From contig JAAUSO010000045.1 in the NCBI GenBank assembly GCA_012033205.1, positions 1-42,132 on the forward strand: 42,132 nucleotides of DNA, written 5' to 3'. Source of the stretch: Richelia sp. SL_2_1 (GTDB taxonomy: Bacteria > Cyanobacteriota > Cyanobacteriia > Cyanobacteriales > Nostocaceae). The notes under the pieces were generated by a model. The model made no database searches, was not told the origin of the DNA, and worked only from the letters and a program-made list of their open reading frames with translations. Of this stretch, positions 2,027-40,256 are shown in pieces (within the stretch, counting starts at the first letter, position 1; each line of letters begins with the position of its first letter). Both the position numbers and the translations under genes were made by a program.

Positions 2027-2345
2027 GGGCGTTCTTCGTCAGTTCCTAAACTATCAGCCCATTCCCGTACAACATTATGTGCTATTCCAGAACCTTTACG
2101 ACGGTAATCTTCAAAGGCTAATTTACTTTGTTGAACCATTTCAGCTTCAGAAACAGGTTGAAAATTTAACCCTGCGTCTATCTCACCGTACTCAAATGAT
2201 TTTTCTATAGCTTGAGTCGGTTGATTTGCAAGTAACTGTTCAAAATCTTTTAAGTTTCCAGATGAATTTGTTAGCCATGTTAAAAGAAGAGTTTTAACTT
2301 GTTCTGATGGTAATGCTTCAAGATGTTCTAATATTTGCTGGTCAT
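2014..2345 (-). CDS. Antitoxin partner of the ParE-like toxin, frame broken near its start
   Basis: An open frame from 2352 down to the stop at 2014 encodes a helical start (ILEHLEALPSEQVKTLLLTWL), a long acidic middle and an ending in REWADSLGTDEE. It has no usable start codon in that frame. The ATG at 2345 reads M-T-S-K-Y-stop. Adding one A to the 3-base tract (plus-strand T at 2334-2336) gives M-T-S-K-I-L-E-H-L-E and a 110-residue protein. Its 3' end overlaps the toxin start by 13 nt, the usual antitoxin-toxin order. The frame break resembles the other single-base homopolymer changes in the window, so the gene may be intact in the cell. Antitoxin by context and layout; family not named. 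Confidence 0.55.
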
Positions 2346-2448
2346 GATTTTCTCAGTTTTGTAGTTTTTACCTGACTATTCCCTTCATACTTAAAATTAA
2401 TACAATACCATCAAAATATCACTCACAAACCCAGGAGAATATCTCAAC

Positions 2449-3114
2449 GTGCAGCCAGATTTAATCGGTTTAGAAATCACTAAAGGTGAATTAAGACGCT
2501 TAACGGGGGTAGACTCTGAAGATGTTTTTCGTCCTTCGATTCTCAAAAACCGCGAACAACGATTTGGTTTTTTGATCAATGAAGTAATCACAGCCCTAGC
2601 TCTGACTCCTATTATTGTCGGTTTTATTTATGCATTTATTATTTTACCTACTATTGGTTCCTCAATTCTTCTCGGAGTAGGATTGTTAGTAATTGTACCA
2701 ATATTAGTAGTATTAATACGGTGGATTTGGCGCAAAAAAAGTTGTCCTCAATCCTTAACGAAACTTCTCGATGAAGTCGATCAATATCACGAAGTCATTC
2801 AAGCTATTGATATTAACGACCAATTAGATACAGCGGGAAATACCCAAAGTCATATTGGCGATCGCCATCAACTTATTGCCGCATTGCAACTGATTCGAGA
2901 AGATTTGGTACGGGCTTTGAAAACGGAACGAATTTTACGCGATAATAAAAAGTTACTTGTGAACAATCAAGATTTATTTGTTAATAATTTAGCTCATCTA
3001 CAAGCTTTGCAAGTTAGTGCAGAGGCTGGGGAATACGCTCAACTTCTGAATCAATCATTGCAAATAGCTGTTGATGTTCAATCTCAAATTAGAAACTTAC
3101 AGTCCCCCCGATGA
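2449..3114 (+). CDS. Two-TM protein of unknown function, 221 aa
   Basis: Starts at GTG with AGGAG about 10 nt upstream. A cytoplasmic-looking N terminus (about residues 1-45) is followed by two hydrophobic segments: about 46-68 (ALALTPIIVGFIYAFIILP) and about 72-92 (SILLGVGLLVIVPILVVLI). A basic stop RWIWRKK follows, then a long mostly helical tail rich in Q, L and E (about 100-221) that may form coiled coils. I do not recognise the family. It ends only 7 bp before the kinase-like gene on the same strand, so the two are probably co-transcribed, though no functional link is evident. Confidence 0.75.
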   Translation: MQPDLIGLEITKGELRRLTGVDSEDVFRPSILKNREQRFGFLINEVITALALTPIIVGFIYAFIILPTIGSSILLGVGLLVIVPILVVLIRWIWRKKSCPQSLTKLLDEVDQYHEVIQAIDINDQLDTAGNTQSHIGDRHQLIAALQLIREDLVRALKTERILRDNKKLLVNNQDLFVNNLAHLQALQVSAEAGEYAQLLNQSLQIAVDVQSQIRNLQSPR

Positions 3115-3121
3115 TTAAAAT

Positions 3122-4461
3122 ATGACTAATAAACCTAAAATAATTGTTCTCGATGATGATCCTACTGGTTCTCAAACTGTCCACAGTTGCTTGCTTTTAA
3201 TGCAGTGGGATGTTGATACTTTGCGTTTGGGGTTAAGAGATGATTCCCCAATTTTTTTGTTTTAACTAACACTAGAGCCTTAACTCCAGACAAGGCTGCA
3301 TCTATAACTAAAGAGGTTTGCCATAATTTAAAGTTGGCGTTGGATGCCGAACAAATTCAGGATTTTCTCGTTGTTAGTCGTAGTGACTCTACATTACGGG
3401 GACATTATCCAGTTGAAACTGATGTGATTGCTGAAGAATTAGGTCCTTTTGATGCTCATTTTTTAGTACCAGCATTTTTTGAAGGAGGACGTATTACACG
3501 CGACAGCGTACATTACTTAATGATTAATAATGTTCCTGTTGCAGTTCATGAAACTGAATTCGCTCGTGATTCAGTATTTAGTTACAATCACAGTTATTTA
3601 CCCAAATATGTCGAAGAAAAGACTCAGGGACGTATTGCAGCCGATTCCGTAGAAAGATTTTTACTTGATGATATTCGGGGCGGTAGTCTGGAACGGTTGC
3701 TCAAACTCAGCGGTAATCAATGTGCTGTTGTCGATGGTGAAACCCAAAGGGATTTAGATCAGTTTGCTGAAGATGTATTAACGGCAGCAAGTCAAGGAAA
3801 ACGCTTTTTATTCCGTTCTGCTGCAAGTATTTTAACCGCTTTAGCGATGCTACCGGACCAACCAATTTCCCCCGAAAACATGGCTAAATATGTCATTACG
3901 GGTAAACCGGGAGCGGTGATAGTTGGTTCTCACGTGAAAAAAACTACTCAGCAGCTAGAAGCGCTGTTGCAAGCCCAAGGTATTGTGGGAATCGAAATAG
4001 ATGTAACCCAGTTGCTTGAGAAAGGGAATCAATCTGCTACACTGCTAACCCATATACTCAAAAATGTTCATGAGGCACATAATGCTGGAAATACACCAGT
4101 AGTTTATACCAGCCGTCAGGAATTAACTTTTGAAGATATTACTACTCGGTTGCAATTTGGGGCTAAGGTTTCAGGCTTATTAATGGATGTTGTTCGCGGT
4201 TTACCTGATGATATCGGATTTTTAATCAGTAAGGGAGGTATCACCTCTAACGATGTTTTAAGTACTGGTCTGGCTTTACAAACAGCACGTTTACTCGGTC
4301 AAGTTCATAAAGGTGTTTCTATGGTAAGAACTCCAGAAAATCATCCTCAGTTTCCTAATTTACCAGTGGTACTATTCCCTGGTAATGTTGGCGATCGCGA
4401 TGCTGTCTTCACTGTTTATCAAAGACTAAGCAAAAATATTCGTGATGGTTTAACAATTTGA
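3122..4461 (+). CDS. Four-carbon acid sugar kinase family (DUF1537/OtnK-like), frameshifted
   Basis: Family members phosphorylate four-carbon sugar acids such as threonate or erythronate; the substrate here is unknown. The N-terminal part from ATG 3122 reads MTNKPKIIVLDDDPTGSQTVH, whose D-D-D-P-T-G is the family's N-terminal motif. The frame hits a stop just after a run of seven T (3252-3258). With eight T the reading continues VLTNTRALTPDKAAS and joins the long frame containing SRSDSTLRGHYP, the family's substrate-site motif. Near the C terminus, a Gly-rich loop and GGITSNDV match the nucleotide-binding domain. The repaired protein is 446 aa, normal family length. The single lost T is either a real mutation or a sequence error. 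Downstream of the two-TM gene by 7 bp. Confidence 0.75.
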
Positions 4462-4506
4462 GGTTTTAATTGCAATTGTCGATGTTAAAGTTTACACATT
4501 GTTTGA

Positions 4507-4621
4507 TATAGGAATCCTACTTGAAAATTGAAAAAACTCAGTACACCTTAATCTTCTAGAATCATGAAAGCCTCTTCCCTCTCTACACAAATAATTTCAA
4601 AAATCAAACCGGATTCCTATA
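4507..4621. repeat. Foldback element with 11-bp terminal inverted repeat
   Basis: Perfect inverted repeat TATAGGAATCC (4507-4517) / GGATTCCTATA (4611-4621) enclosing about 93 bp with TTGAAA and TTTCAA-like inner arms. It sits between the kinase-like gene and minC and encodes nothing. The form fits a small non-autonomous foldback (MITE-like) element; it could also terminate the upstream transcript. No target duplication could be defined. Confidence 0.55.
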
Positions 4622-4654
4622 ATTGCTTGATGTTCGTGTTTTGGCTGGTGTTGC

Positions 4655-5779
4655 ATGACTATTGATTCAGCTATTCCAGATTTTAATTCTAACGATGATG
4701 TTTCTCAGACAGATTCCCAAGTTACTCAGGAGGAAACTGAGGAATCTACCGTGACAGAAGTGACTTTTATTTCCAGTGTCAATAATGTCTATGTTTCTTC
4801 GGAACCAGTTTCCCAGCAAACTAGTATTGAAGAAAATTCTCCAGTTAATCCCGATCAAGAATTTATCTCAGACCAAAGGAATGTTGAAGAAAATTCTCAT
4901 CAAACAAACAACGATGAATCAGTTTCTCCTCAAATAGAGGTAGAAGACAATTCTGCTGTTGAACAACAAATTGATCATTTAAATGATCAGCAAATAAGTA
5001 TTGATATTCCCTTGCTAGAAAATGCAGTTGTAGCTAATCAAAAAATTCAAGTAGAAATCAGGAATGCAAAAGATAAATTAGTATTAATTTTACCAACCAT
5101 ATCGGAAGCTTCCATATCCGAGTACACTTGGTCTGAAATTTGGCAACAAATGAAACTGCGGCTTTTAGCACAGCAACGCTTTTTTAATTCTAAGATAAAC
5201 GTACACGTGGTAGCCCACGACCGCTTACTTGATAGCAGACAACTGCAAGACATTGCCGAAACCTTAAGCGAAATGTCCTTACAACTCAAATCAGTGGGTA
5301 CGAGCCGTAGACAAACTGCGATCGCGGCTGCCGGTGCCGGTTATTCTGTAGAACAATTACAGCCGAAAACCGCTTTTAACTTTGAATCAAAAACTGCTAC
5401 ATTGCCTCCAGCAGAACCACTCTATCTGGAAACAACAGTACGTTCCGGTGTAGAAATTCGCCATAGAGGTAGTGTAATTATCTTGGGAGATGTAAATCCA
5501 GGTGGTATTGTAGTCGCAGATGGCGATATTCTAATTTGGGGCCGCTTACGGGGAATTGCTCACGCGGGCGCTCAAGGTAACAGCGAATGCACGATTATGG
5601 CTTTACAAATGGAACCAACTCAGTTAAGAATTGCCGATGCTTTAGCTAGAGCTCCAGAAAAATCGCCTACGCAAATTTACGCTGAAGTTGCGTATACAAG
5701 CAAACAGGGAATCCGCATCACCAAAGCTAATGATTTTTCTAGACTTCAATTAGCGAGGTTGAATCAACAGCAAAATTAG
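4655..5779 (+). CDS. minC: Septum site-determining protein MinC
   Basis: Inhibitor of FtsZ ring assembly that works with MinD on the membrane. The C-terminal domain (about residues 262-340) is the right-handed beta-helix of MinC, with VEIRHRGSVIILGDVNPGG, DGDILIWGRLRGIAHAG and the closing MALQMEPTQLRIA. The middle region (about 115-200) corresponds to the FtsZ-inhibiting MinC_N domain. The first ~110 residues are an acidic, Gln/Ser/Asn-rich disordered extension; with it the protein is 374 aa, longer than E. coli MinC (231 aa). Extended MinC N termini occur in cyanobacteria. First gene of minCDE, with 174 bp before minD. Confidence 0.93.
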   Translation: MTIDSAIPDFNSNDDVSQTDSQVTQEETEESTVTEVTFISSVNNVYVSSEPVSQQTSIEENSPVNPDQEFISDQRNVEENSHQTNNDESVSPQIEVEDNSAVEQQIDHLNDQQISIDIPLLENAVVANQKIQVEIRNAKDKLVLILPTISEASISEYTWSEIWQQMKLRLLAQQRFFNSKINVHVVAHDRLLDSRQLQDIAETLSEMSLQLKSVGTSRRQTAIAAAGAGYSVEQLQPKTAFNFESKTATLPPAEPLYLETTVRSGVEIRHRGSVIILGDVNPGGIVVADGDILIWGRLRGIAHAGAQGNSECTIMALQMEPTQLRIADALARAPEKSPTQIYAEVAYTSKQGIRITKANDFSRLQLARLNQQQN

Positions 5780-5850
5780 ATACTTCAGTAATTTACTCAA
5801 TAATCTGCTCTATGAAAAATAAATTTGACCAAAAGCGCCTTACTCAATAA

Positions 5851-5896
5851 TCAACTGCACCCTGGGGATGATTATTGATCAACTGCACCCCCTGGG
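5851..5896. repeat. Direct repeat in the minC-minD spacer
   Basis: TCAACTGCACCCTGGG at 5851-5866 recurs as TCAACTGCACCCCCTGGG at 5879-5896, separated by a short AT-rich spacer containing ATTATTGA. It lies 58 bp upstream of the minD start. It may be a small duplicated spacer or a paired binding site; no regulator is implied by the sequence. Confidence 0.5.
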
Positions 5897-5953
5897 TGAA
5901 AACTAATTAAACATTGTGTATTTTTTAATGCCATCACCAGCGCATTCGTAATC

Positions 5954-6760
5954 ATGACTCGAATTGTTGTCATTACCTCCGGTAAAGGAGGAGTTGGGAA
6001 AACAACCACTACAGCCAATCTGGGCATGGCTTTAGCCAAAATCGGTCGTCAAGTAGCCTTAGTTGATGCGGATTTCGGTCTGCGAAATTTAGATTTGTTG
6101 TTAGGACTAGAAAACCGCATTGTTTATACTGCGGTGGAAGTTTTGGCAAGAGAATGCCGTTTAGAACAAGCTTTGGTTAAAGACAAACGGCAACCCAACT
6201 TAGTACTGCTACCTGCTGCCCAAAATCGTACCAAAGAAGCAGTCACCCCTGACCAAATGAAATTGCTGGTAAATGCTTTAGCACAAAAATACCAGTATAT
6301 TATTATTGACTGTCCTGCCGGAATTGAAATGGGGTTTAAAAATGCGATCGCCCCCGCAAACGAAGCTTTAATTGTTACAACTCCCGAAATAGCAGCCGTC
6401 CGTGATGCTGACCGGGTAGTAGGGTTATTAGAAGCACAGGGGGTAAAGAAAATTCACTTAATAATTAACCGGATCAAGCCCGCAATGGTTCGGTTAAATG
6501 ATATGATGTCAGTGCAAGATGTTCAAGAACTTCTCGCAGTTCCCTTAATCGGGGTAATTCCCGACGACGAACGAGTAATTGTTTCTACCAATCGTGGCGA
6601 GCCTCTGGTTTTATCAGAAAATCCTTCTTTGGCAGCCACAGCTTACACTAATATTGCTCGTAGATTGGAAGGGGAAACGGTAGATTTTCTTGACTTTGAC
6701 TCGTCCCAGGACAACCTATTTTCCCGCCTCCGAAGGTTATTGTGGACAAAAATTATTTAA
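5954..6760 (+). CDS. minD: Septum site-determining ATPase MinD
   Basis: Membrane-cycling ATPase that recruits MinC and is released by MinE. The deviant Walker A motif GKGGVGKT is at residues 10-17 and VALVDADFGLRNLDLLLGL follows as the ParA/MinD switch region. IIIDCPAGIEMGF (about residue 115) is the Walker B region. The C terminus NLFSRLRRLLWTKII is an amphipathic membrane-targeting helix, as expected for MinD. Length 268 aa is normal. It sits between minC and minE (30 bp) on the same strand. No good ribosome-binding site precedes the ATG, but the conserved MTRIVVITSGKGG start fixes it. Confidence 0.97.
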   Translation: MTRIVVITSGKGGVGKTTTTANLGMALAKIGRQVALVDADFGLRNLDLLLGLENRIVYTAVEVLARECRLEQALVKDKRQPNLVLLPAAQNRTKEAVTPDQMKLLVNALAQKYQYIIIDCPAGIEMGFKNAIAPANEALIVTTPEIAAVRDADRVVGLLEAQGVKKIHLIINRIKPAMVRLNDMMSVQDVQELLAVPLIGVIPDDERVIVSTNRGEPLVLSENPSLAATAYTNIARRLEGETVDFLDFDSSQDNLFSRLRRLLWTKII

Positions 6761-6790
6761 CCAAATCCAGTATGCGCTCATACAGCTGCA

Positions 6791-7102
6791 ATGATTCTTG
6801 AACTTTTGGAACGACTTTTTTTTCGCAGTCACGATAACAGTCGTAATGATGTTAAACGTCGGTTGCAATTAGTTATTGCTCACGATAGGGCTGACTTAAG
6901 CCCTCAAATGATCGAAAAAATGCGGCAAGAAATTCTCGAAATTGTTTGTCGTTACGTGGAAATTGAAGCTGATGGCTTGGAATTTTCTTTGGAAAGTAAC
7001 CAACGTACAACAGCTTTGATTGCTAATGTACCTATCCGTAGAGTCAAAGGTTCTACTTTGGAAACCGAAATGACTGAAAAAACTGAAGAAAAAACTGAGT
7101 AA
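6791..7102 (+). CDS. minE: Cell division topological specificity factor MinE
   Basis: Stimulates MinD ATPase and confines the division inhibitor away from mid-cell. The N-terminal [11 protein letters not shown] is the membrane/MinD-binding helix. [17 protein letters not shown] (about residues 23-39) is the family signature leading into the dimerisation domain ([11 protein letters not shown]). Residues 1-86 cover the usual MinE; the last ~17 residues are a Thr/Glu/Lys-rich tail ([12 protein letters not shown]) that looks like repeat expansion. Third gene of minCDE. No clear terminator follows. Confidence 0.95.
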
Positions 7103-7317
7103 ATAACTAGGTAAAAAACTAGGTAAATACATACAAATATAAGTTGAATGGAACGAGCAGAGCAATCGTTAGAAGTTGGGTTTTAATAAAATTTATAAGG
7201 CTGTTATAGATAAGCTAAAACACATCTAAATTACAGATTGTCAAAATCCATCAGGTTTGTAGTGCAAGCCGAAAAGCTTGCTAGTGTATTACAAATTAAA
7301 TGTGGAATAGCTGACTT

Positions 7318-7337
7318 ATTCTAAAAACCCGACTTCT
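7318..7337 (+). repeat. Dispersed 20-mer, single arm
   Basis: ATTCTAAAAACCCGACTTCT occurs here once. Its exact reverse complement is at 27013-27032 and a near copy at 27054-27076, where the two form a hairpin. Here only one arm is present, so it looks like a solo end of a dispersed palindrome. Confidence 0.7.
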
Positions 7338-7452
7338 TCCGGTAGTTCTGACATTGATGGAGGAGGTAAGCTAAAAAGCGTTTAAGAAAGTATATTCAAA
7401 TTTTATTCAAGTCGCCGGTACTCCGGCGATTCTCGGCAGGCAGTCTTGTAGT

Positions 7453-7519
7453 GCGGGCATCCCTTCACGGGGAGTTTACCCTTGAACGAAGTGAAGGGTT
7501 CGAGGGCAAGCCTGCCCGC
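7453..7519. repeat. Nested foldback repeat
   Basis: Outer arms GCGGGCA (7453-7459) / TGCCCGC (7513-7519); inner arms CCCTTCAC (7461-7468) / GTGAAGGG (7491-7498). It is GC-rich compared with its surroundings, as is common for mobile palindromic repeats in cyanobacteria. No coding content. Confidence 0.6.
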
Positions 7520-7797
7520 CAGAAAAATATAAATTAAATGCGCGACAGCTTAGTAACAGTTCTCGTTAGTACGTATTTAAAGAAGCTTTACAAAATTTGG
7601 GATCGGAAATTGGTATCCATATAGCAATCCGAATTGAGATGTGAGAAAATACTTGGATTTAAAGAGCTACTGCTTGATTTTAATTTTCCGAATTAAGATT
7701 TATTTTTTCCGTAATTTAACTATATTTCTTGTATTCTAAAATGACTAGCTGATTAATAGTTAATTTTTCGGTCATTATATAGATTAAAAATAAAATC

Positions 7798-8729
7798 ATG
7801 ATAAAAATGCAGAAGAAGTTGTATTCAACATTTGGGAAAAAGTAATTTTACAAGTCTCTCCATTTGTTGCTACCTCAATGTTAGCAAGTTCACCTACTTT
7901 AGCTGCAACTTTTGCTGGTTCCTTTGGGGAGTTAACTTTCACAAATTTCAATCGAGAAAATGCAGCATTTGAAGCAATTAATGATGCTAATACTTCAGCT
8001 GAAACTAATGCGGATGATAGCATAGTAAATTTTCGGAACTTTTCTGAAACTAATGCTGAACCAACTCCATTAGAAATATCTAATGTTGCAGAAAGTTTAA
8101 TATTTGGTCAGGGTTCAGCTTACAGTGCTTCTGCGGAAACTATGCCAAGATTTTTGGCAAATTTTGATGTGAGTCGCAACGATACTTTATCATTTGACTT
8201 TACAACTATTCTTGATTTGGAGGCTTCGGTAGATAAACCAGGAGTTGAGACTGCGAATGCTGCTGCAAATATTGCTTTTTATCTTTTAGATACAACTGGT
8301 ATTTCTACAGAAAATCGGTTTGATTTTCTCAACTCAACACAATTAGAACCCTTGCAGATTAGCCAAAATAATATATTAGAATATTTTACCCTTTCAGCAA
8401 ATATTGATGCTTTAGGTAAAATTGATTTTTTTAATAACACTAAAAGTAAAAATATTGATATTAGCAGTGATTTCAGTTATTCTGATGTCGAAGAAATTGG
8501 CGATTTGGGTAGGAATAGAGCAATTAGCACTTCTATAAATAAGGGTTCTGTAAAAAGATTTTTTGATATTGATAGAAATGTAACTTTGTTGGCATTTAAA
8601 AATACAAAATCTAATGTTAAAGTCCCCGAACCTGGAACTAGTTTATGGTCTGCTTTATTTGCACTATTGATTACTTTAGGTATTAAAATAAAAAATAAAT
8701 TTGAGAAAAAATCTACTTATAAGATGTAG
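7798..8729 (+). CDS. PEP-CTERM exported protein, frame broken in its signal peptide
   Basis: The C terminus has the PEP-CTERM sorting signal: VPEPGT, then a membrane helix (SLWSALFALLITLGI) and a basic tail (KIKNKFEKK). Such proteins are cut and sorted by an exosortase, not seen here. The long frame starts only at ATG 7878 (MLASSPTLAA), too short for an export signal. Starting at 7798, MIKMQKKLYSTFGKK stops at once after a run of five A (7837-7841). With six A the reading continues VILQVSPFVATSMLASSPTLAATFAG, a good signal peptide with AxA-type cleavage. The repaired protein is 310 aa. The middle is Asn/Asp/Phe-rich and of unknown role, perhaps an outer-layer protein. A second ATG at 7807 is an alternative start. 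Confidence 0.7.
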
Positions 8730-8946
8730 ATAAATTAAGACTACAAATAATAAACTAATGCATACGGGCGGAAATAAGGCAACTATTTTTGACGTTAAGC
8801 GGGTAGGGAGGAAAGGGTAGGTTTAATGTACTAGTACGAGGCTACTAACGTTACTTACGGTAAATATCGTTACTTAAAGAAAAATCGCGTTCCTTGTTCT
8901 TAGCGTCGTCCGAAAAACTGTATTCTATTTACCGAAAAATTGGGTC

Positions 8947-8974
8947 TAAAGCCCCGCCCATAAGCGGAGGTTTA
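8947..8974. repeat. Hairpin resembling an insertion-sequence end
   Basis: TAAAGCCCCGC (8947-8957), loop CCATAA, then GCGGAGGTTTA (8964-8974): 9 of 11 positions pair. AAGCCCCGCCC hairpins are common at the right end of IS200/IS605-type elements, but no TnpB or TnpA remnant can be read beside it. The link is tentative. Confidence 0.3.
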
Positions 8975-9549: not shown

Positions 9550-9732
9550 GTTTTATAGCTGATTAAATTTATCAGAAGGCAGAAGTACGGAGGCAGTCCC
9601 GATGAAAAACAATTTACACCACCAATTGTCTAAGTCTTAATATTTCTTCCCACTGCTGCTCGAATCCAGCTTTTGAGTTCTAAAACCAAAAAAATAGGTC
9701 TAATCTAAAAAACCTACCCTTGAAAGCATCTT

Positions 9733-13051: not shown

Positions 13052-13060
13052 AGTAATATC

Positions 13061-14555: not shown

Positions 14556-14556
14556 A

Positions 14557-26762: not shown

Positions 26763-27012
26763 AAAGTCAATTAATCTGAATCTCTTTTGTATATTGGTGT
26801 GAATTATATTCCTGGGTTAAGATTGCTTGAAAATGGAATATAAAGTGTGTGTGAGGAGCAATAAAATTTGACTGCTTTGCCATAACAGCAGCATTTTTAC
26901 GAGTCAAAATATCCGATAAATTTAGATGCAGTATTTTGACCACATCTAAAATTTTCGACAATTTTTAGCTAATAAAAACTCTTAATTCTGAGGTGAATTC
27001 GACGATTAGCAC

Positions 27013-27076
27013 AGAAGTCGGGTTTTTAGAATAAATGTCTGTAGTCACAGGCAATTCTTATAAAAACCCGACTTCT
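27013..27076. repeat. Long hairpin of the ATTCTAAAAACCCGACTTCT repeat
   Basis: Arms AGAAGTCGGGTTTTTA (27013-27028) and TAAAAACCCGACTTCT (27061-27076), 16 perfect base pairs, with further pairing GAAT/ATTC after a small bulge. One arm recurs alone at 7318-7337. The T run inside the arm on either strand would make a poor terminator; a dispersed palindromic element is more likely. Confidence 0.8.
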
Positions 27077-27131
27077 AACCCCAGGAAAAATCAAGGTTTT
27101 ACAGTTTACTTATTATTATCGAACTCACGTT

Positions 27132-27173: not shown

Positions 27174-27625
27174 CTAAATATCGCCGCGAATTTCTTCAAT
27201 AACACCGTCACGCAGCACAATTTCAACCTGCATTTTGCTAATTAAGTTATCGCCTTTTTCTGCTCGGAAAAAGCCTTCTAACTGAAATTGATTAACTTCT
27301 TGATTCAATTCAAGCATTTGTACTTGTTGCAGGTTTTGCAAGCTTTGGTTTTTTTTGTTCTAGCATTTCGCTTTTTTTTCTCATTTACCTGACCTTGAAT
27401 ATTCTCAATTTGTTGTAGAGTCTGAGGTCCGGGAGGTTGTAAACCTTGCTTTTGAATTTCAGTAATTGCTCGCTGTCCTTGGACATCGATTTGTTGTAGC
27501 TGCTGGTCAACTTGATTAATTTGAGTTTGTAGTTGCTGCGTTACTTCCTCTTTCCATAGAGGTGTGACAATGGCTTTAACGTTAATAACGCGCTTTAGCA
27601 GCAATTGAGGGTTGGAGATGTCCAT
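27174..27625 (-). CDS. Coiled-coil protein, unknown function, frame broken at two A8 tracts
   Basis: From the ATG at 27625 the frame reads about 82 residues with a Gln-rich coiled coil (TQINQVDQQLQQIDVQGQRAITEIQKQG), then breaks down into Lys/Asn-rich nonsense. Removing one A from each of two runs of eight (plus-strand T at 27372-27379 and 27349-27356) gives SEMLEQKNQSLQNLQQVQMLELNQE, then QLEGFFRAEKGDNLISKMQVEIVLRDGVIEEIRGDI and a stop at 27174. The repaired protein is 149 aa, with a helical start and a compact strand-rich end. The clean C-terminal domain in the shifted frame supports the repair. Function unknown. It lies 41 bp downstream of the acyl-ACP synthetase gene on the same strand. 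Confidence 0.65.
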
Positions 27626-29859: not shown

Positions 29860-30163
29860 CTGGCTTCACCTGGGTAATTTCTGTTAATCTGGATTAAGTC
29901 TGAGTCCAAATGTAAAATTATATGGATAAAAATTTAGTTATATAAACCGACATATACATACTGAAGATTAGTTTGATTTTTCCATGTCATATATAAGACT
30001 GAGATAATTTAATTAACAAAAACTAACAAGCAATAAATAGATTTAAAAATAGATTAAAAAAGAAATTTCAACTTAAAAATCGTTTATGCTAACCAAAAGA
30101 AACTCAAAAGTTGATACTGATTTAATTATCACGATTTTGCTTCACAATAGAATAAGTACTTAG

Positions 30164-30326
30164 GCAAAATTAATTGTGTATTTGTCATTGCGAGTGGAAC
30201 GAAGTGAAACGAAGTGAACGAAGCATTCACCCTACGGGTGAATGCTGAGTCCTGACGGACACGCTGCGCGTTTACGCAGTATAGCGAAGCTAACGCTGTA
30301 GCTCGCAATGACACAATTAATTTTGC
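30164..30326. mobile_element. 163-bp foldback (MITE-like) element
   Basis: The left arm is GCAAAATTAATTGTG (30164-30178), TATTT, then GTCATTGCGAG (30184-30194). The right arm is CTCGCAATGAC (30302-30312) running into CACAATTAATTTTGC (30312-30326). Both arm segments match perfectly; the left arm has 5 extra bases. Inside are shorter hairpins (AAGCATTCACC-CTAC-GGGTGAATGCT and GCTGCGCG-type) and repeated CGAAGTGAA. It encodes no protein. Such structure fits a non-autonomous element moved by an absent transposase. Confidence 0.75.
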
Positions 30327-30368
30327 ACACCCACTTATGAGGATTTTTTCGCAAAAGGAGACCTGAAG

Positions 30369-30527
30369 ATGAGTTTAACTAATATCGTATTACTCACCCT
30401 CGTCAATACTGTTACTTGCCTTGTCTTACCCAAGACAATATCTTCAGTATTCAGTGTCAAAAGCAAACCTAAAATTCTTTCCGAAACAACTACCATAGCT
30501 TTAAAAAAGCAAGCTAAAACTACTTAA
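30369..30527 (+). CDS. Small single-TM protein, 52 aa
   Basis: An ORF of 52 codons with a strong ribosome-binding site (AAAAGGAG 9 nt before the ATG). The protein begins MSLTNIVLLTLVNTVTCLVLP, a hydrophobic segment of about 18 residues, followed by a Lys/Ser/Thr-rich basic tail (SVKSKPKILSE...ALKKQAKTT). The layout suits an inner-membrane small protein with its tail in the cytosol. I recognise no family. It lies 131 bp before the carotenoid oxygenase gene on the same strand and just after the foldback element. Confidence 0.6.
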   Translation: MSLTNIVLLTLVNTVTCLVLPKTISSVFSVKSKPKILSETTTIALKKQAKTT

Positions 30528-30658
30528 CTTTGTGTAGTGTAATTAATTACTATTTGAATCTTTAGTGGTTTTGATAGTGTAACCAAGTTAAAATCGTCAA
30601 TCTAAAATAAAAATTAAAATAAAAATTAAAATAGATTGACCTTCAAACTTTAACTAAA

Positions 30659-32056
30659 ATGGGAACATTAACAGTAAATCCTTTTCTCGACGGTAATTTT
30701 GCCCCAGTGCGTGAAGAAATCACCGCTGATGACTTGAAAATAATTGGTGAATTACCACCAGATTTATCCGGGATGTTCGTAAGGAATGGTCCCAATCCCC
30801 AATGGAATCCCAAAGGACAGTATCATTGGTTTGATGGGGATGGAATGTTACATGGGGTGCGGATTTCTGACGGTAAAGCCAGTTATCGTAACCGTTACGT
30901 GCGGACGAAAGGATGGCAAATCGAACAAGAAGCGGGTAAAGCCCTATGGAGTGGGTTATTAGAACCGCCACAAATGGATAACCCCCACGGTGCATCTAAA
31001 AACGTTGCCAATACCGCCTTAGTATGGCACGCAGGTCAATTTTTGGCACTTTGGGAAGGAGGTGCGCCTCATGCTATAAAAATTCCAGAATTAGATACTT
31101 CAAGTGAATTTACTTACAATACTCAATTAAAATCTGCATTTACAGCACATCCCAAAGTAGACCCGATAACGGGTGAAATGATGTTTTTCGGTTATTCATT
31201 TGCTCCGCCATACTTACATTACAGTATAGTTTCACCTGAAGGCGAACTTGTAAAAACAGTACCCATTGAACTACCCATGGGAGTAATGATGCATGATTTC
31301 GCCATTACGTCAAACTATACAATCTTTATGGATTTGCCAATGACATTCAATCCCATGCGGATGGAGAAAGGTGAACCCGGTATGATGTTTGAGAAAGATA
31401 GAGCCAGTCGTTTTGGTGTTGTACCACGTCACGGCGATAATAATGATATACGTTGGTTTGAAACTCCTGCTTGTTTCGTATGGCATACCCTCAACGCTTA
31501 CGAGCAAGGAGATGAAGTAGTACTTGTGGCTTGTCGGATGAATTCCACAACCGTTTTTGCGACAGAGGATGTTGAAAGCGGTGGGGAAGATAATATTCCC
31601 AGACTGCACCGTTGGCGATTTAATATGAAAGATGGTAGCGTGCGCGAAGAAATGCTTGATGATGTACCTTCAGAATTCCCCCGTATTAACGACAACTTTT
31701 TAGGACAACCAACGCGCTACGGTTATGCTGGCAAAATGAAACAAGGTGTAATGCCTTTATTTGATGGTGTAATTAAGTATGACCTCAACAGCGGTAAATC
31801 CCAAACTCATGAATTTGGTGAAGCACATTATGGTGGTGAAGCTGTATTTGTACCTCGTGCTAGTGGAAGTGGAGAAGATGAAGGTTGGGTAATGACTTTC
31901 GTTTATGACTCAAATCAGGATACATCTGAATTAGTAATTGTAGACGCTCAAGATATGACATCGGAGCCAGTTGCAAGAGTACTGATTCCCCAGCGTGTTC
32001 CTTATGGTTTCCACGGTGATTGGGTTAGTGAGGAGAAATTGCACAAATCGAAGTGA
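30659..32056 (+). CDS. Carotenoid oxygenase (RPE65/apocarotenoid-15,15'-oxygenase family), 465 aa
   Basis: Fe(II) enzyme that cleaves carotenoids or apocarotenoids, giving retinal-like products in cyanobacteria. The four iron-binding His of the seven-blade propeller are visible: His164 (FTAHPKVD), His212 (GVMMHDFAITSNY), His276 (CFVWHTLNA) and His452 (YGFHGDWV). The N terminus PDLSGMFVRNGPNPQW is the family start. Length is close to the known cyanobacterial apocarotenoid oxygenase, so the function is well supported although the exact substrate is not. No beta-carotene or rhodopsin gene is beside it. Confidence 0.93.
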   Translation: MGTLTVNPFLDGNFAPVREEITADDLKIIGELPPDLSGMFVRNGPNPQWNPKGQYHWFDGDGMLHGVRISDGKASYRNRYVRTKGWQIEQEAGKALWSGLLEPPQMDNPHGASKNVANTALVWHAGQFLALWEGGAPHAIKIPELDTSSEFTYNTQLKSAFTAHPKVDPITGEMMFFGYSFAPPYLHYSIVSPEGELVKTVPIELPMGVMMHDFAITSNYTIFMDLPMTFNPMRMEKGEPGMMFEKDRASRFGVVPRHGDNNDIRWFETPACFVWHTLNAYEQGDEVVLVACRMNSTTVFATEDVESGGEDNIPRLHRWRFNMKDGSVREEMLDDVPSEFPRINDNFLGQPTRYGYAGKMKQGVMPLFDGVIKYDLNSGKSQTHEFGEAHYGGEAVFVPRASGSGEDEGWVMTFVYDSNQDTSELVIVDAQDMTSEPVARVLIPQRVPYGFHGDWVSEEKLHKSK

Positions 32057-32067
32057 TAGGTAATACA

Positions 32068-32130
32068 GATAACTGATGTAGAGACGTTGCAGTGCAACGT
32101 CTCCTTGTATTTTCGGTTGTACGAGAATTT
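32068..32130. repeat. Palindromic dispersed repeat, copy B
   Basis: Core GAGACGTTGCA (32081-32091) / TGCAACGTCTC (32093-32103) around a single G, with the same flanks as copy A at 12988-13051 (GATAACT-x-ATGTA, CCTTGTATTTT, GAGAATTT). It begins 12 bp after the carotenoid oxygenase stop, again directly behind a gene. Confidence 0.85.
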
Positions 32131-32226
32131 GCTGAAAAAATTGTTAGACTTTGTTCTTATCTACCCGGAAATAATTACTATTTTTAGTGCGAATCAATTT
32201 AAACTTATGGATTGGAGTTAATTATT

Positions 32227-32532
32227 TTACTTCCCACCATAATAAAAAGCGATTTCCTTATCCTTCAAAGGCGCAAAATCAGCTTCTTCAAGCATTTGAT
32301 TAAGTTCAACTTGAGAAATATGTTTAGCTCCAATTCTAACTATACGAGACCTCATAGTATTTTTTACACCACTACGCTGTCTATTACCTTCAAGCGCCAT
32401 GACTTGATTGTACAAATCTAATTTTGCAGGTTCAATAGGAGAACCATCTAAATCAATTCCATTAGCAATAGCTTCGTCAACAGCATCCGCACCCTTGGTT
32501 GAGGCATCCATTTGATTAGTTTGGGCAGTCAT
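32227..32532 (-). CDS. Conserved-looking cyanobacterial protein, unknown function, 101 aa
   Basis: A soluble, charged protein. The N terminus MTAQTNQMDASTKGADAVDEAI is Ala/Asp-rich and probably flexible. Residues about 35-75 contain PAKLDLYNQVMALEGNRQRSGVKNTMRSRIVRIG, a helical basic region. The C terminus VELNQMLEEADFAPLKDKEIAFYYGGK is neat and looks folded. No motif known to me. Convergent with the carotenoid oxygenase gene. Confidence 0.65.
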   Translation of the reverse strand: MTAQTNQMDASTKGADAVDEAIANGIDLDGSPIEPAKLDLYNQVMALEGNRQRSGVKNTMRSRIVRIGAKHISQVELNQMLEEADFAPLKDKEIAFYYGGK

Positions 32533-32713
32533 AGCAAAGGATTTTTATTTTCTGATTTAATTTATTAATATTAAATTTTACCAGTTAACGGTACCGTTAC
32601 TCACTTTAAATCTTAACATTAACATTTAGATGCCGTAATTTTTCGTATGCACTTGTCAGGAATCGGTTCTATAGTTTAATCTCAAAGCAATGCTATAGCA
32701 ATATGGTGAAGCT

Positions 32714-33093
32714 ATGTCAGAGCATCCTATTCCCGAACAAAAAACCGTAGATTAGAAAGGGCTTTAAGCAATACAATTGTCGATATATATTTCGGCACTT
32801 CTGAAAGCTGGCTGCGAGCCATCCTCCGGATGTGCATTTTTTCATTAGGCTACATAGATTCCGAGCCAGTGTTTATTGTTGAATGTCCCAACCAAGCTGT
32901 AGCAAAACGGTTAAGCCGCAAAACTTATCCTTTTAGAGAAATAGTCTATTGGTTTACCGATAACCTACAAGCCGGCGAACGCACTTTATTTTGCTATCAA
33001 GAATTAAAAAATGGTTCGTGGCAATGCTTCGACACCAACAGCAATTCTTGGAAAAACTGGAACAGTCTATATATCCCCCAACGCTTGATTTGA
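32714..33093 (+). CDS. Small protein, unknown function, 126 aa after repair of an A tract
   Basis: The frame from ATG 32714 (MSEHPIPEQKTVD) stops after 13 residues. Adding one A to the run of six (32739-32744) reads MSEHPIPEQKNRRLERALSN and joins the long open frame TIVDIYFGTSESWLRAILRMCIF that continues to 33093. The downstream frame alone begins at ATG 32830 (MCIFSLGYIDSEPVF). The repaired protein has a helical start and then a beta-rich region with YPFREIVYWFTDNL and FCYQELKNGSWQCF. Family unknown. Confidence 0.6.
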
Positions 33094-33100
33094 CAAGATT

Positions 33101-33149
33101 GGGAATTGGGAATTGGGAATTGGGAATTGGGAATTGGTAATTGATAATT
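33101..33149. repeat. GGGAATT heptamer array
   Basis: Five exact GGGAATT units then GGTAATT and GATAATT, starting 7 bp after the preceding stop codon. Confidence 0.92.
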
Positions 33150-33323
33150 GGTACTCCTATTCCGCTAGAAAATTACCTATTTCTCTTTATCTCTTTACGA
33201 ATGCGTTCTCTGCGTCTAGTAAGGGTTTTTTTCGGTAATCTTTTAACGGGAAGGGAGTAGTTATGAGTTAATAATTATCTATCCCCCACCTTCCCCAAAC
33301 CCCATCCCCCACCTCCCTATCTC

Positions 33324-33587
33324 TTACTCCTTCCGAGTTACTAACCCAGCGAAAAAGGCACCTAAAACACTTCCAGTCCAAATTCCCGTAGTGCTACCTT
33401 GCCACATTGCACCCGGTGCCACTACGAATTTACAACCTGTTTTAAATAACTCCCAACGTTGGTTTTGACAATTTTGACTGTGAGCTTGTACGCTAATTTG
33501 TCCTCCAACATAACCGCCGAAAAAGCCAGATGCAAGGGCTAAGAAAGTACAAACTAATAATCTTTTTCGTGATGATTGTTTACTCAT
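33324..33587 (-). CDS. Small membrane protein, 87 aa
   Basis: An N-terminal hydrophobic segment of about residues 9-32 (LLVCTFLALASGFFGGYVGG) and a second at about 66-83 (GIWTGSVLGAFFAGLV), with a short loop between them holding two Cys (QNCQNQRWELFKTGCKF) that could pair outside the cytoplasm. The GxxxG patterns suggest helix packing. No family recognised. Downstream of ppc on the same strand? No: it lies after the ppc stop by about 100 bp and is separated from ppc by a heptamer array, so co-transcription is unclear. Confidence 0.65.
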   Translation of the reverse strand: MSKQSSRKRLLVCTFLALASGFFGGYVGGQISVQAHSQNCQNQRWELFKTGCKFVVAPGAMWQGSTTGIWTGSVLGAFFAGLVTRKE

Positions 33588-33624
33588 TGTTAGGAGTTAG
33601 TACCACCTGAGTTTGGAGTTAAAG

Positions 33625-33680
33625 TTACCAATTACCAATTACCAATTACCCATTACCCATTACCAATTACCTATTACCAA
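33625..33680. repeat. TTACCAA heptamer array at the ppc 3' end
   Basis: Eight 7-bp units, mostly TTACCAA with TTACCCA twice and TTACCTA once, ending 6 bp before the ppc stop codon (minus strand). Confidence 0.92.
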
Positions 33681-33686
33681 TTCTCA

Positions 33687-36600
33687 TCAACCAGTATTTC
33701 TCATCCCAGCCGCAATTCCGTTAATCGTTAACAGCGCACCTCTGAGCAATTCTCCTTTGCTGTAACGCGAGTGGATTACTCCAGAACTTGCGCTGGTTTT
33801 ACTGTGCCGCAAACGTTTAAGTAAAGATACCTGAATAAATCCAAGAGGTACAATAGTACCATTTCTTAACTGTACCGAACGCTGTAAAACTGGATCTCCA
33901 TCTAAAAGTCTTTCGTGTCCGGTGATTTGTAAGACTAAATTTTTTGTCAGATAGTATTCGCTGGAAATTTGGTTAAATACCCCATCAAAGCGCTGCTTAT
34001 CTTCGGGTTTAGATAGTTCCTCTACATAGTGTCGAGCCATTTGTAAATCGACTTTTGCCAAGGTCATTTCTACTTTGGAAATCACCATTTTGAAAAATGG
34101 CCACTTTCTGTAAAAGCATTGTAGTAACTGTATGTGGTCGTCGGGAGCTTCGTTTAAAAATTCTTGTAAAGCTGTACCGACTCCGTACCATGCAGGTAGT
34201 AAAAATCTGGTTTGCGTCCAGCTAAATACCCAAGGAATTGCCCGTAAACCGCTTAAACCCTTATTACCCGATGGACGACGAGCGGGACGAGAACTGATTT
34301 GTAGTTGACTAATTTCTTCAATGGGCGTAACTTGATGAAAAAAGTCTATAAAATCGGGTTGTTCGTAAATTAAATCCCGATAATGCGATCGCGATCGCGC
34401 TGATAATTCTTCCATAATTTGGTTCCAGGGTTCGATATTGTCAAACCCAGCACTGAGTAGACTGGCTTGAATTACCGCAGTGGTGATTGTTTCGAGATTG
34501 TACAGCGCCAAATTAGGTAAGGAGTATTTGGAAGCTAAAACTTCTCCTTGTTCGGTAATTTTGATCCGTCCATTAATACTTTTACCTGGTTGGGCTAAAA
34601 TTGCTTCGTAAGCGGGACCGCCACCGCGTCCAACTGAACCACCCCGTCCATGAAAGATTCGTACGCTTAAGCCATGTTCTTCGGCTATTTGCTGCAATGA
34701 TTTTTGGGCTTTGTGAATCTCCCAATTACTACTCAGAAAACCGGAGTCTTTATTACTATCGGAATACCCCAACATGATTTCTTGTAAATTGGGATTTAAG
34801 GGAGAAGCTGGAGAAGAAAATGACTCTTTATCCCCTTGTCCCCTTGTCCTCTTCTCTTCTTCATAGACTTCATACCCTCCCGCGAGTAGTGCGCGATACA
34901 GAGGAAGGGAAAACAAGTCTCGCATGACTTGTCTCGAACGCTGTAAGTCTTCTACTGTTTCAAATAAGGGGACTACTCGGATTGTACCGATGGCGGTTCC
35001 GGGATCGTAAAGTCCTGCTTCTTTGGCTAAGAGTAATACTTCAAGTACGTCGCTCACCGAGCGACACATACTAATAATATAAGTTTGACAGATGTTGCAA
35101 CCAAATTCTTGTTGTAGCGATCGCAATACACGCATCGTTTCTACAACTTCGTTGGTTTTATCTGCAAACGCTAACTGTGCGGGAATTAATGGTCTTCTGG
35201 TTTGTAGTTCTTCTATTAACCAAGCAATTTTCTGCTCTTCTGGTAGTTCTTCGTAATTTGTCTGTAAAATTCCTAGATATTCTAAAATTTCGCCGATTGC
35301 ACTGCTGTGACGGGTTGATTCTTGGCGAATATCTAGTTGTGTCAAATTAAAGCCAAAAATTTCCACTTGGGTGAGCAGATTTTCTAACTGCTGACACTTT
35401 AAACCCGTTTGTGATAAGTTGCGTTGAATTAACCTTAAATCTGTTAAAAATTCAGCTTCGGAAGGGTAAATTGGAGCTTTATCGTCTTTAATAATCTCGC
35501 GCTTCCACAATGCTGAATTACGTTCCCGTGTATTTTCCAGTCGCTTAACTACATAAGCGAGTTTCAACCGATAAGGTTCCTGACGATAGCGTAAAGCCAA
35601 TGCGTCGTATACTCCGCTCATCTGGGACTGTTCGATTTCCAACGATTCTAATAAGTCCGGTAGAACATCGCTCCAGTGCAGCGACACGCTTAATAATTCA
35701 ATTAATGCTTTCCCAGATTCGATATATTTTTCTAACACCATATGGCGTTGATAACAAGCCGTCTGCCAAGTTATTTCTGGTGTTACTGATGGATTCCCGT
35801 CTCGATCGGAACCAACCCAAGAACCAAATTGACAAAAGCTTTTGATTGGTGGCTCAAGTCTGGGAAAGGTTGAATTCAAAGCGTATTTGAAACGCTCGTA
35901 CAATTGCGGGATAGCATCAAACAATACTGATTGAAAATAGTGCAGCGCATAATCTACTTCATCCAGTACGCTGGGTTTAAACTGATGTAGTTCGTCAGTA
36001 CGCCACCATAAACGAATATCTTCTAATAATTGAGAGCGAAGTTGGGTTGTTTCCCAAGAATATCCCCCTGCGGTCATATTGCCAGAACGCTTTTCTGATG
36101 CATCGAGTTTTGCAGTAAATCTACTACTCGCCGCTGTTTATCTCGAATCGTTGGACGGACAATTTCAGTTGGGTGAGCTGTAAACACTAAACGCACGTCC
36201 AATTGTGCAATTAAGCGTTGAATTTGTCCTGGTGGTACATTTAATTTAAATAACTTGGGGAATAGTTCGGCAAAGGTTCCTTTGTCTTTTACATTAGGTT
36301 TAGATTGCCAATTTTTGACTAGTAAATCTGCATTAACTCCGTTGTTTAAATGAACTTCCTCTTGTTGATGATTGCTCGAATAAATAATATTGGGTAAAGT
36401 TTCTGTTTGCCGATCTTCTTCATAGCGAGTCAATTGTTGCTGCTGTTCGTAGTCTTGTTCTACGATATTGATCAACTGAAAATACAAAGCAAATCCACGA
36501 GCTGCCCTAATTGCTTCATTAATATTTAATTGTTCAATTAAGCTCGATACTGAAGCCGCTTGGTTATCCGTTGCTTGTCCTTCTGGGGAACATAAATCGC

Positions 36601-36757
36601 GTAACTGTTTGAGGAGATCTACCATTTGTTGTCCGCATTCTTCGCGGAGAACCAATTCCCACATTTCCTCAACGATTTGCAAGCGATGGCGCAAAAACAA
36701 ATCTGATGCGGGGTAGATACTTACAGCCTGAGTTGAAGGGTATAAAACGGTACTCAT
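33687..36757 (-). CDS. ppc: Phosphoenolpyruvate carboxylase, frameshifted near residue 215
   Basis: Makes oxaloacetate from PEP and bicarbonate, a main anaplerotic step. The N-terminal frame (36757 to 36074) carries [19 protein letters not shown] with the catalytic His, then stops. The rest of the enzyme lies in another frame (from 36077 to 33687), with [38 protein letters not shown] and the final GMRNTG. Adding one A to the 4-base run (plus-strand T at 36108-36111) makes [20 protein letters not shown] continuous and gives 1,023 aa, the usual cyanobacterial size. It is expected to be needed for growth, which argues that the break is a sequence error. There is a repeat-like insert ([20 protein letters not shown]) before the GYSDSNKD motif. 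Confidence 0.9.
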
Positions 36758-36875
36758 ATCCTAAATAATATATAGAGCTGATTACTGTTTATTATTTTTT
36801 CGTGGTTCTGCACCCACATCTGATAAATTTTACATCCAAAGACGGCTTCACACTTTTTATACTGCGTATGCTGCT

Positions 36876-37109
36876 TTAATCTGCCGAATTTGAAGTTGGA
36901 AAATCAAGTAGGGGTAGGCGTTCGCCTCGAAATAATTCTTCACTGGCTTGTCCTACGGCTATGAGTGCTTCTCGCGTAGCTTTTTCTGCTAATACTAATG
37001 TTAGGACAGAAACGGTACCAGCTTGCAGGATGACGGACTGGGAAATTGAGAATAAGCCCAAATTCAATTCGGCTTGAGATGACTTAGAATTAACAGACTC
37101 AGTTGACAT
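36876..37109 (-). CDS. Small protein, unknown function, 77 aa
   Basis: Taken from ATG 37109 (MSTESVNSKSSQAELNLG); an upstream in-frame start at 37151 would add 14 less likely residues. After a Ser-rich start comes one helix-forming stretch, FSISQSVILQAGTVSVLTLVLAEKATREALIAVGQASEELF, with a hydrophobic half. The tail is short. No motif known to me. It lies upstream of ppc on the same strand (118 bp gap) and divergent from the DUF1574 gene. Confidence 0.6.
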   Translation of the reverse strand: MSTESVNSKSSQAELNLGLFSISQSVILQAGTVSVLTLVLAEKATREALIAVGQASEELFRGERLPLLDFPTSNSAD

Positions 37110-37342
37110 AGATATTTTTGACGATGCAGTAAGATAAGTTAAATAAAACACAAAAATTCACAAGTGGAGAGTTTAATCGTTGTTTACTCCGTTAATATGG
37201 GCAAATTAAATCAGTCAACAAGTAAACCAATAAGATCACAAAAGTGTAAAAAAACTTTCTAGCTAAATAGTTCGATAATTCTAGTTTACTAGTACTCGCC
37301 AGCCCTTTGTGCGTCTGCTCAATTTCTTTTCGTCCACAACAG

Positions 37343-40256
37343 ATGAAAACAGCCTTTATACAAACCCAACAATCATTAGCACAGTGGGTAAGCCAAGCAA
37401 CAGGAATCAACTCTTTGGGGGTAAAAGTCCGGTTGCGAGGAAATGACCTGCACATTCTCTGTGAATCACAATCTGGACCTGCTCGTTGGCAAACTTTATC
37501 CGATTTGCTTAAAGCACTACAGCAAACTGATTTAGATGCTTTAGCAAAAAGCGAACAGTCTTCAATATACCAAGTTTTCGTTTATGGAAAGAAAAAAGCG
37601 AAAAACGCCCCCAATGGTGTCACAAGGTTTACTTAAATCAACTTGACAAGCACTTAGAAGAGGTAAATCAGGCGCTTTTAACAGCCCAAAAGCCGACGGG
37701 AGCGCTAATTTTATCGAACGAAAGTTTAGCCCGTCAAGGAGATCCTTCGGCAATTGCTCGCTATCTTAGCGAAACCCTGAGTACTTTTGGTGTGGCAGTG
37801 CAAGTCAAGGTCAGAAAACAACAGCCATCAGACAGCATTGCTCAAAATAAAAGCCGTTTATGGGTTTTTGTCAATCAAATTACACACCAGATCCATCATT
37901 AATTGCTGAACCTGTAGCAGCGAAATTACGACATCTGGAGTTATTGGGCTATCAAGATGCAGTTATTTCTACACAAGTTGTTGGCGAAACTCAACCAGAT
38001 TGGCTGCTGCTGATTGATTTAACGCCCCCAGAGGTGATGCTCAAGGAATGGGCTAGGTGGGGAGATGTACAAGCTATTGTCAGGCTTTTAAACCTGGGAT
38101 TTGCTAATTCTAAGGTGGAGGTGCAAGCTTCTTTAAAAGATTCAACGCTACATATATTTTGTACCCCAGGATCTGAATCTTCAGAAGCTTCAGTGATTCC
38201 ACCTAAAACATTGTGTTTGGATAAAATTGTTCCGACTTTAGAGGCACTAGCTCCCCAAGGTATATTATCGGCAGCGATTTACGGACAACAAACTGTTTCA
38301 TCTTCCGAACCTGCTTGGATCGATTGGCTATCTTTACCAGCTAAGGAGCATCCAGCTTTAGCAACACCAGCGATTGAATTAGCTAATTCGGGCGATATTG
38401 AAGCAATTACTTTTTTACTCCAACGTTTACTCAATCCCAATTTAGACAACCGTTTAAAAACTGGCGGTATTCGCGTAATTTTGCGGCGTAAACAAGATTT
38501 ATTACACATCATGTGCGATGCTCCAGTATGTCCAGCACGCAAACAAGTAGCTGCCAAGGTGATTAATTTTATTCAACATTTGCAGTTATCTGACCTTGGA
38601 GGAGTGCGCGTTTACGGACGACGGGCTGGTAATAAAAAACCATTTTGGCAATTAGGTACAGACTTCAAGCAGCGTCAACGAGTAGTACCCGAAGCGACTC
38701 CAGAATTTGCTGCAACTTCTGCCTACGTACAGGAACTGTTACCCAACGACGACGAACCCTTATTGCGTACCGATTTAACCAGCGAAGAAATCCATGCATT
38801 TGTTACTGATGTAAGCAAAGATTGGGGTGAAATTGTCAAAAACTGGTTTTTAAGAACCCAGTTATTTATTGAAAAACAGCCATCTGAATCAAACTCGGAA
38901 ACAAGAGTACGTCGCGTTGCTTTAATTTGGGGTACTCTCGGATTATTGCTCAGTTTACAAACGGATTGGCTATTAGGTTCAATTTTGACTACCTTTGCAT
39001 TCCCAACTGCAACAGTTACTCAATCCCAGGCAAATACAACCACCGAAGAAACAAAAACGGCGTATCTTTCCAACACCAGCCAAGAAAAACCCAACCCTAA
39101 CTCAAACTCAGTATTTAACGGTTCTAACTTCACCACCCAAAACAACTCCAACCGAGGTAAAGCAACAGCAACCGCTATACTTTTAGCAGCGCGATCGCAA
39201 CTTCCCAGTTTTAATGCTCGGCAGTTAGATGAACAATTGGCTTTATATAAACAGCGTCTGGTAAAAAATGGTGCGCCACCCGATGTATTAATTATCGGTT
39301 CTTCCCGTGCTTTACGAGGTATAGATCCAGATGCGTTGAAAAAGGGTTTAGCAACAGAAGGTTATCCAGATGTTGATGTTTTTAATTTTGGTATTAACGG
39401 TGCCACAGCCCAAGTTGTAGATTTTGTAATTCGTCGCGTACTCCAGCCATCGGAATTACCTCATACAATTATCTGGGCAGATGGTTCTCGTGCCTTTAAT
39501 AGCGGTAGAGGAGATAATACCTTTGATACGATCGCCGCATCACCTGGTTATCAATATGCTCTCAAAACATCTTTAGCAAGAGTTGGCTCGACAAATCAGC
39601 CAAAAACTCTTAAAGAAGCAGAAATTGCCAAACAAAAAAGCAATGGCTATGAAATTATTAACGACAAACTAAATCAAGGATTCGCTACTATTTCAAATTC
39701 CTACAACAAACGCGACCAATTAAAAGGTCAGATTAACAAGATATATAAATCTCTACCCATAATTAGCGGTTTGAAGGCAGATTATGCAAGGGATTCCACA
39801 AATCTTTCCGAAGATGTTGACAATTATGCAGTAGACTTTGATGGATTTTTACCTTTATCCATCCGCTTTGAACCCAATACTTATTATCAAAAACACCCAA
39901 GAGTTGGGGGTAATTACGATCAAGATTATCAAAACTTTGATTTAGTTGGCGAGCAAAACGCAGCTTTACAAGCATTACTCAACTACACAGAATCTCAAAG
40001 TATAAATGTAGTATTCGTAAATATGCCCTTGACGGCAGATTATTTAGATCCTGTACGTACAAAATACGAACAAAAGTTTGAGGAATATATGCTGAGTTTT
40101 GCAAATCGTTCCAACTTCGTTTACCGCAACTTAAGTCAAATATGGCTGGAAGCCAACGATTATTTTTCCGATCCCAGTCACCTCAACCGTTACGGTGCAT
40201 ACGAAGTATCTAAAAAACTCGCCAAAGATCCGATGATTCCCTGGAGTGGGAAGTAA
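37343..40256 (+). CDS. DUF1574 SGNH-like protein with four N-terminal modules, frame broken twice
   Basis: Repairing a run of six A (37592-37597) and a run of five T (37865-37869) by one base each joins three frames into 971 residues. Residues ~1-440 hold four copies of a ~100-residue module (a helix with G-D-x-x-A-I, a strand with LHI-C, and a VYG(R/K) strand). A membrane segment follows at about 525-550 (ALIWGTLGLLLSLQTDWLLG). The rest is an SGNH-hydrolase-like domain with the Ser motif VLIIGSSRALRG and the D-x-x-H motif DPSHLNRYG. Related domains add acyl groups to extracellular polysaccharides. It lies 69 bp upstream of the MBOAT gene. The ATG at 37343 is chosen over TTG 37307. Confidence 0.8.

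Follow-up and report, generated by a model that had tools for sequence, protein, structure and literature searches.

Frame-breaking A/T tract changes on a contig of a Rivularia-group cyanobacterial draft genome are most likely homopolymer-length errors in the consensus

The stretch analysed here (the window, 42,132 nucleotides) is the entire contig JAAUSO010000045.1 (C50) of the draft genome of Richelia sp. SL_2_1 (GenBank assembly GCA_012033205.1; G000), and six of its genes are split by single-base changes in the length of A or T runs at eight sites. We consider it most likely (probability of about 0.87) that these eight breaks are A/T homopolymer-length errors in the assembled consensus, and that such errors occur draft-wide. 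The breaks are single-base tract differences that are found on several contigs, depend on run length, are restricted to A and T, and are blind to coding status. From this pattern we infer that they originated in sequencing or assembly rather than in the cell, and likewise which kind of platform produced them. Error is favored because other parts of the draft show a fault of this kind as well, in genes that the cell can hardly lose. In all likelihood, the finding is an artefact and no real feature of the organism.

The draft assembly, of a cyanobacterium of the Rivularia group, totals 7,551,214 bases spread over 359 contigs, with a completeness of 98.29 and a contamination of 1.99. The best named matches of the ppc product encoded in the window are from Rivularia sp. 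T60_A2020_040 and Plectonema cf. radiosum LEGE 06105 (each 98% identical at the protein level). Two near relatives were used for alignment, with mean DNA identity over the window of 93.4% (G001) and 94.8% (G002), and five further relatives (G003 to G007) were compared by their counterpart proteins.

The original prediction listed nine single-base tract changes, seven tracts lacking one base and two carrying one too many, and counted at least seven broken genes. All nine tracts are present where it placed them, some of them as T runs on the + strand since the gene lies on the minus strand. Eight of the nine differ by one base in length from relatives with an unbroken frame, six being shorter and two longer in the window, as predicted. 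The ninth, at 2334-2336, shows no such difference, and the number of genes was set too high, as only six are shown to be split by single-base changes (Table 1). In the alignments, a one-base difference separates the window from G001 and likewise from G002 at 3252, 27349, 27372, 32739, 36108, 37592, and 37865. At 7837, G001 differs by one base and G002 is unaligned, while the frame is unbroken in G003, G006, and G007. Judging from these comparisons, the exact base change cannot be placed uniquely at 7837 and 37865, because the relatives differ from the window at different bases: at 7837 the base at fault is in the A run relative to G001 and is a T a few bases further on relative to G003, G006, and G007, and at 37865 G001 and G002 each differ from the window by different bases. 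At 2334-2336, the run is equally short in G001, which has 16 extra bases alongside, near 2340, and the 114-amino-acid (aa) frame of G001 matches positions 2349-2032 in a single frame.

Table 1. Genes of the window at the nine predicted sites and the positions of their frame changes
Gene	Position	Strand	Frame change
DUF1537-type (four-carbon acid sugar / D-threonate-like) kinase	3122..4458	+	at T run 3252-3258
PEP-CTERM-like secreted protein (putative)	7798..8729	+	at or just past A run 7837-7841
YlqD-family (PF11068)	27177..27625	-	at + strand T runs 27349-27356 and 27372-27379
Uncharacterised 126-aa gene	32710..33093 (start approximate)	+	at A run 32739-32744
ppc (phosphoenolpyruvate carboxylase)	33690..36757	-	at T run 36108-36111, after about residue 216 of 1023
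DUF1574 protein	37307..40256	+	at A run 37592-37597 and T run 37865-37869
Small gene beside ParE/RelE-like gene	2032..2349	-	predicted at 2334-2336; no tract change

When proteins of the relatives are matched to the window, the match is divided between two or three frames, and the frame switches fall at the predicted sites. In the comparison with the same genes in related strains that the original prediction had proposed, the frames are intact in the relatives. Such frame switches are seen against all seven relatives for the DUF1537-type kinase, YlqD-family, and DUF1574 genes (the G003 copy of the DUF1574 gene runs off its contig), against six for ppc (all but G003; G002 via a joined contig), and against six for the 126-aa gene (all but G005). 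The DUF1537-type kinase, with SBD_N and NBD_C domains, has an unbroken frame of 446 aa in G001 and G002, its T run in the window being one base shorter than in either; its counterparts in G003 to G007 also match the window in two frames. In the YlqD-family gene (149 aa and unbroken in G001 and G002, with counterparts in G003 to G007 again matching in two frames), both T runs are one base longer than in the two near relatives. Both near relatives have one base more than the window in the A run of the 126-aa gene and in the T run of ppc. Unbroken frames of the 126-aa gene span 126-127 aa in G001, G002, G003, G004, G006, and G007 (the G002 protein has no Pfam match), and those of ppc (PF00311) span 1015-1033 aa in G001, G002, G004, G005, G006, and G007. 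The 983-aa frame of the DUF1574 protein is unbroken in G001 and G002, and the counterparts in G003 to G007 match the window in three frames. The PEP-CTERM-like assignment is putative, as it was read from the C-terminus of the product; neither the window piece nor the G001 protein has a Pfam match, and unbroken frames measure 277 aa in G001 and 307-310 aa in G003, G006, and G007. Near the end of this gene, at 8648-8649, G001 is one base longer than the window and its C-terminus is shortened, a break private to G001.

The rate at which tracts change was evaluated in a three-way alignment of this genome with G001 and G002, covering 123,494 bases over contigs C50, C350, C174, and C65 and restricted to homopolymers for which two genomes of the three have the same length. 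Tract changes are found in all four of these contigs, out of 359 in the draft. The fraction of coding A/T runs changed in this genome alone climbs with run length, from 1/3183 at length 3, 1/994 at length 4, and 1/341 at length 5 to 4/94 at length 6, 6/26 at length 7, and 2/7 at length 8 (8/33 at lengths 7-8 together). Among coding A/T runs of at least 5 bases, 13 of 468 are altered in this genome alone (7 of the 13 contributed by C350, C174, and C65), and on the same tracts none is altered in G001 alone and one in G002 alone. None of the 883 coding G/C runs is altered in any of the three genomes. Outside genes, 4 of 154 A/T runs of at least 5 bases are altered here (2 in G001 and 4 in G002), a frequency that does not differ from that in coding runs (P = 1.0), and the relatives' changes are mostly noncoding. 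The same blindness to coding status is seen in isolated one-base indels on C50 and C350, which fall within and outside genes at 10:9 in this genome, 2:30 in G001, and 1:20 in G002 (10:9 against 3:50 in the pooled relatives; Fisher's test, P = 3.2e-5), in a count that excludes indels longer than one base, those within 30 bases of another (which drops 27349 and 27372), and places uncovered in either relative (7837). The figure of 10 is conservative in that the count files 37865 as two relative-specific noncoding events and the dnaN break described below as noncoding, although one of the 10, at C350:29467, is doubtful, the frame there being longer in this genome.

Breaks of this kind recur across the draft. 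On C350, which carries dnaN, comparison with G002 shows one-base losses in genes for a glycosyltransferase, a copper-type P-ATPase (twice), and a TPR protein and in dnaN, sufR, and sufD; the dnaN break lies only about 19 codons before the end of the gene (376 codons, against 390 in G002). On C65, the gene for ribosomal protein bL25 is split at an A run, on C174 mutS1 is split at a T run that is one base short, and on C29 guaB3 is in two frames. C250 has further one-base breaks, seen against G002 alone. Growth of a cyanobacterium is expected to depend on ppc, sufD, bL25, and dnaN. The 20-kb stretches sampled from other contigs were placed in G002 well for C350, in part for C250, and hardly for C80. 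Of the G002 genes of at least 120 codons that map to the sampled stretches, 103 of 126 are whole in this genome. Among genes compared three ways, 65 of 78 are whole here and 76 of 78 in G001 (Fisher's test, P = 0.005), and these shortfalls are not all tract breaks, as some genes are only missing a few codons at the end or show longer indels. A gene for a TdeIII-type restriction endonuclease (G000:C174:69635-70485; PF09520 in the G002 copy) is also not whole, with a two-base difference from G002.

Substitutions, in contrast to these frameshifts, obey selection. The private nonsynonymous-to-synonymous (N/S) ratio in this genome is 0.45 in intact genes and 0.45 in broken genes, compared with 0.49 and 0.35 in G001 and 0.44 and 0.37 in G002, respectively. 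In a larger sample, the counts are 395:1024 here and 1115:3143 in both relatives pooled (P = 0.22). Private stop codons number 0 here and 6 in G001. This combination, in which frameshifts ignore selection and substitutions are subject to it, is the pattern that consensus errors leave.

The preference for sequencing or assembly error that the original prediction expressed is thus supported by the spread over several contigs, the steep length dependence, the equal coding and noncoding rates, the split housekeeping genes, and ordinary purifying selection. Its own grounds were the involvement of ppc, which is indeed split, and of short A3-A5 tracts, which turn out to be the smaller part (the three-way comparison has 15 coding tract changes at reference runs of at least 3 bases, and only 3 of these are at runs of 3-5). 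We propose that A/T run lengths would have been mis-called, mostly one base short and at times one base long, in a type of read with imperfect homopolymer measurement, whether from 454 or Ion Torrent instruments or as unpolished long reads, with a probability of error that climbs with run length, and that the errors would have been left uncorrected. In flow sequencing (Ion Torrent and 454), deletions overtake insertions as runs lengthen and the A and T flows are error-prone, according to PMC3623719; the draft resembles such data in its length-dependent one-base indels and A/T bias, but its errors are seen in the consensus, not in reads. Unpolished nanopore assemblies, as described in PMC9262707, can carry homopolymer consensus indels that break gene calls, even at high-quality grade, and homopolymer consensus indels disrupt genes here too; unlike typical long-read assemblies, however, this one is cut at short repeats. 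Short-read-like contig ends combined with homopolymer errors would probably agree better with Ion Torrent or 454 than with nanopore.

Several observations weigh against consensus homopolymer error. Among 38 contig ends sampled, 17 coincide with short repeats, dispersed or tandem, compared with 8 of 300 internal controls, and an exact 56-base end is common to two contigs. Such ends suggest a short-read assembly, and if the reads are Illumina, a homopolymer error rate of this size is unexpected. Not every break is a one-base run-length change: sufD lacks a lone G with no tract change, guaB3 lacks an A and, at a distance of 12 bases, a G, again with no tract change, and the difference in mutS2 lies in a C-rich stretch. 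The reciprocal test from G001 genes is weaker, with 62 of 74 genes whole here and 70 of 74 in G002 (P = 0.06). Private one-base indels outside genes number 9 here, below the 30 of G001 and the 20 of G002. In a cruder two-way list for C350 against G002, the frame is shorter in G002 in 12 rows and in this genome in 7; the 12 rows come from a small number of frames, in several of which the indels are clustered, and only one row was scored as coding and private to G002 in the three-way comparison. The two-way list was dropped for counting, as antisense and short frames enter it, and the three-way counts were used instead. Finally, this genome shows a slight excess of transitions at fourfold sites (314:234 compared with 902:824, P = 0.044), and both mutS1 and mutS2 are found in two frames, as a mutator would require.

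The last two points bear on the alternative that survives best, a real mismatch-repair mutator in which mutS1 was lost and one-base A/T slips then built up genome-wide. The mutS1 gene matches its family as two pieces in different frames (G000:C174:71490-74068, L244), and mutS2 does likewise (G000:C29:16775-19226, L246). PMC5854121 reports that loss of mutS in Vibrio raises length-dependent single-base homopolymer indels, an increase with run length that is also seen here. For mutS-deletion lines it gives 4313 substitutions and 382 indels in V. fischeri, and 1022 substitutions and 273 indels in V. cholerae, the substitutions being mostly transitions. The direction of the fourfold-site excess is the one a mutator predicts, although the branch of this genome is also the shortest. 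However, mutL is whole, and the mutS breaks may be instances of the same error; breaks in mutS are expected now and then because 13 of 78 genes are broken generally, a rate at which a split mutS1 is unremarkable. A mutator also predicts many extra, poorly filtered substitutions, and N/S is not significantly raised, a test that excludes the higher of the two substitution:indel ratios better than the lower. Moreover, the frameshifts are equally frequent in and outside genes and strike ppc, sufD, and bL25, where the selection acting on a living lineage should purge them. We therefore regard a mutator as improbable. A fuller version is similarly improbable; in it, the cyanobacterium would be a mutator, in nature or in culture, whose mutS1 is truly broken, whose A/T runs have slipped genome-wide, and whose frameshifts, even those in housekeeping genes, are masked by polyploidy or slippage.

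Recent widespread gene decay without a mutator, through relaxed selection as in a symbiont, would account for the excess of genes that are not whole here over G001. The signs expected of a decaying symbiont, nonsense substitutions and raised N/S in the broken genes, are absent: there are no private nonsense substitutions, and N/S resembles that of the relatives, with the broken genes included. Single-base A/T tract changes predominate, housekeeping genes are struck, and genome size and completeness (7.55 Mb, 98.29%) resemble those of relatives, which makes decay very unlikely. We give hardly any credence to the idea that the tracts are real and the frames are rescued by slippage of RNA polymerase or the ribosome. 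Two tracts of the window are T8/A8 and one run has a length of eight in the relatives, a kind at which slippage, which has a run-length requirement, has been reported. Most of the broken runs, though, have 3 to 7 bases; at the corresponding positions the relatives keep intact frames with tracts of different length, which leaves no conserved slippery signal. We see just as little chance that ordinary biological variation explains a few sites and errors the remainder. G001 and G002 also have private coding one-base indels (2 and 1, respectively), and the sufD, guaB3, and mutS2 breaks are not tract changes, but it is chiefly in long A/T runs that this genome exceeds its relatives. Phase variation at every site was rejected, as most runs are short and housekeeping genes are affected.

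Elsewhere in the window, short dispersed repeats, which related genomes contain many times over, occupy 1-160, 4504-4620, 7444-7555, 26994-27118, 30152-30340, 33153-33260, and 33590-33690, and the left end of the contig falls inside one short dispersed repeat. Next to the small gene at 2032..2349, a small minus-strand gene that we take to be of ParE/RelE type lies at 1721-2026, and G002 is unaligned over 1744-2412. At 1405-1411, G002 is one base shorter within another small minus-strand gene (1086-1433), a break private to G002; the window and G005 both have a whole frame for this gene. A plasmid search with positions 30000-42132 gave no match, and a tRNA scan and an Rfam scan at gathering thresholds of the window found nothing.

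If the breaks are consensus errors, the draft over-reports pseudogenes, with 13 of the 78 sampled three-way genes not whole compared with 2 of 78 in a near relative, and claims of gene loss, a mutator phenotype, or phase variation in this organism should not rest on the draft without reads. Counting private one-base tract changes in coding and noncoding sequence over two near relatives offers a cheap way to distinguish error from decay when reads are not at hand.

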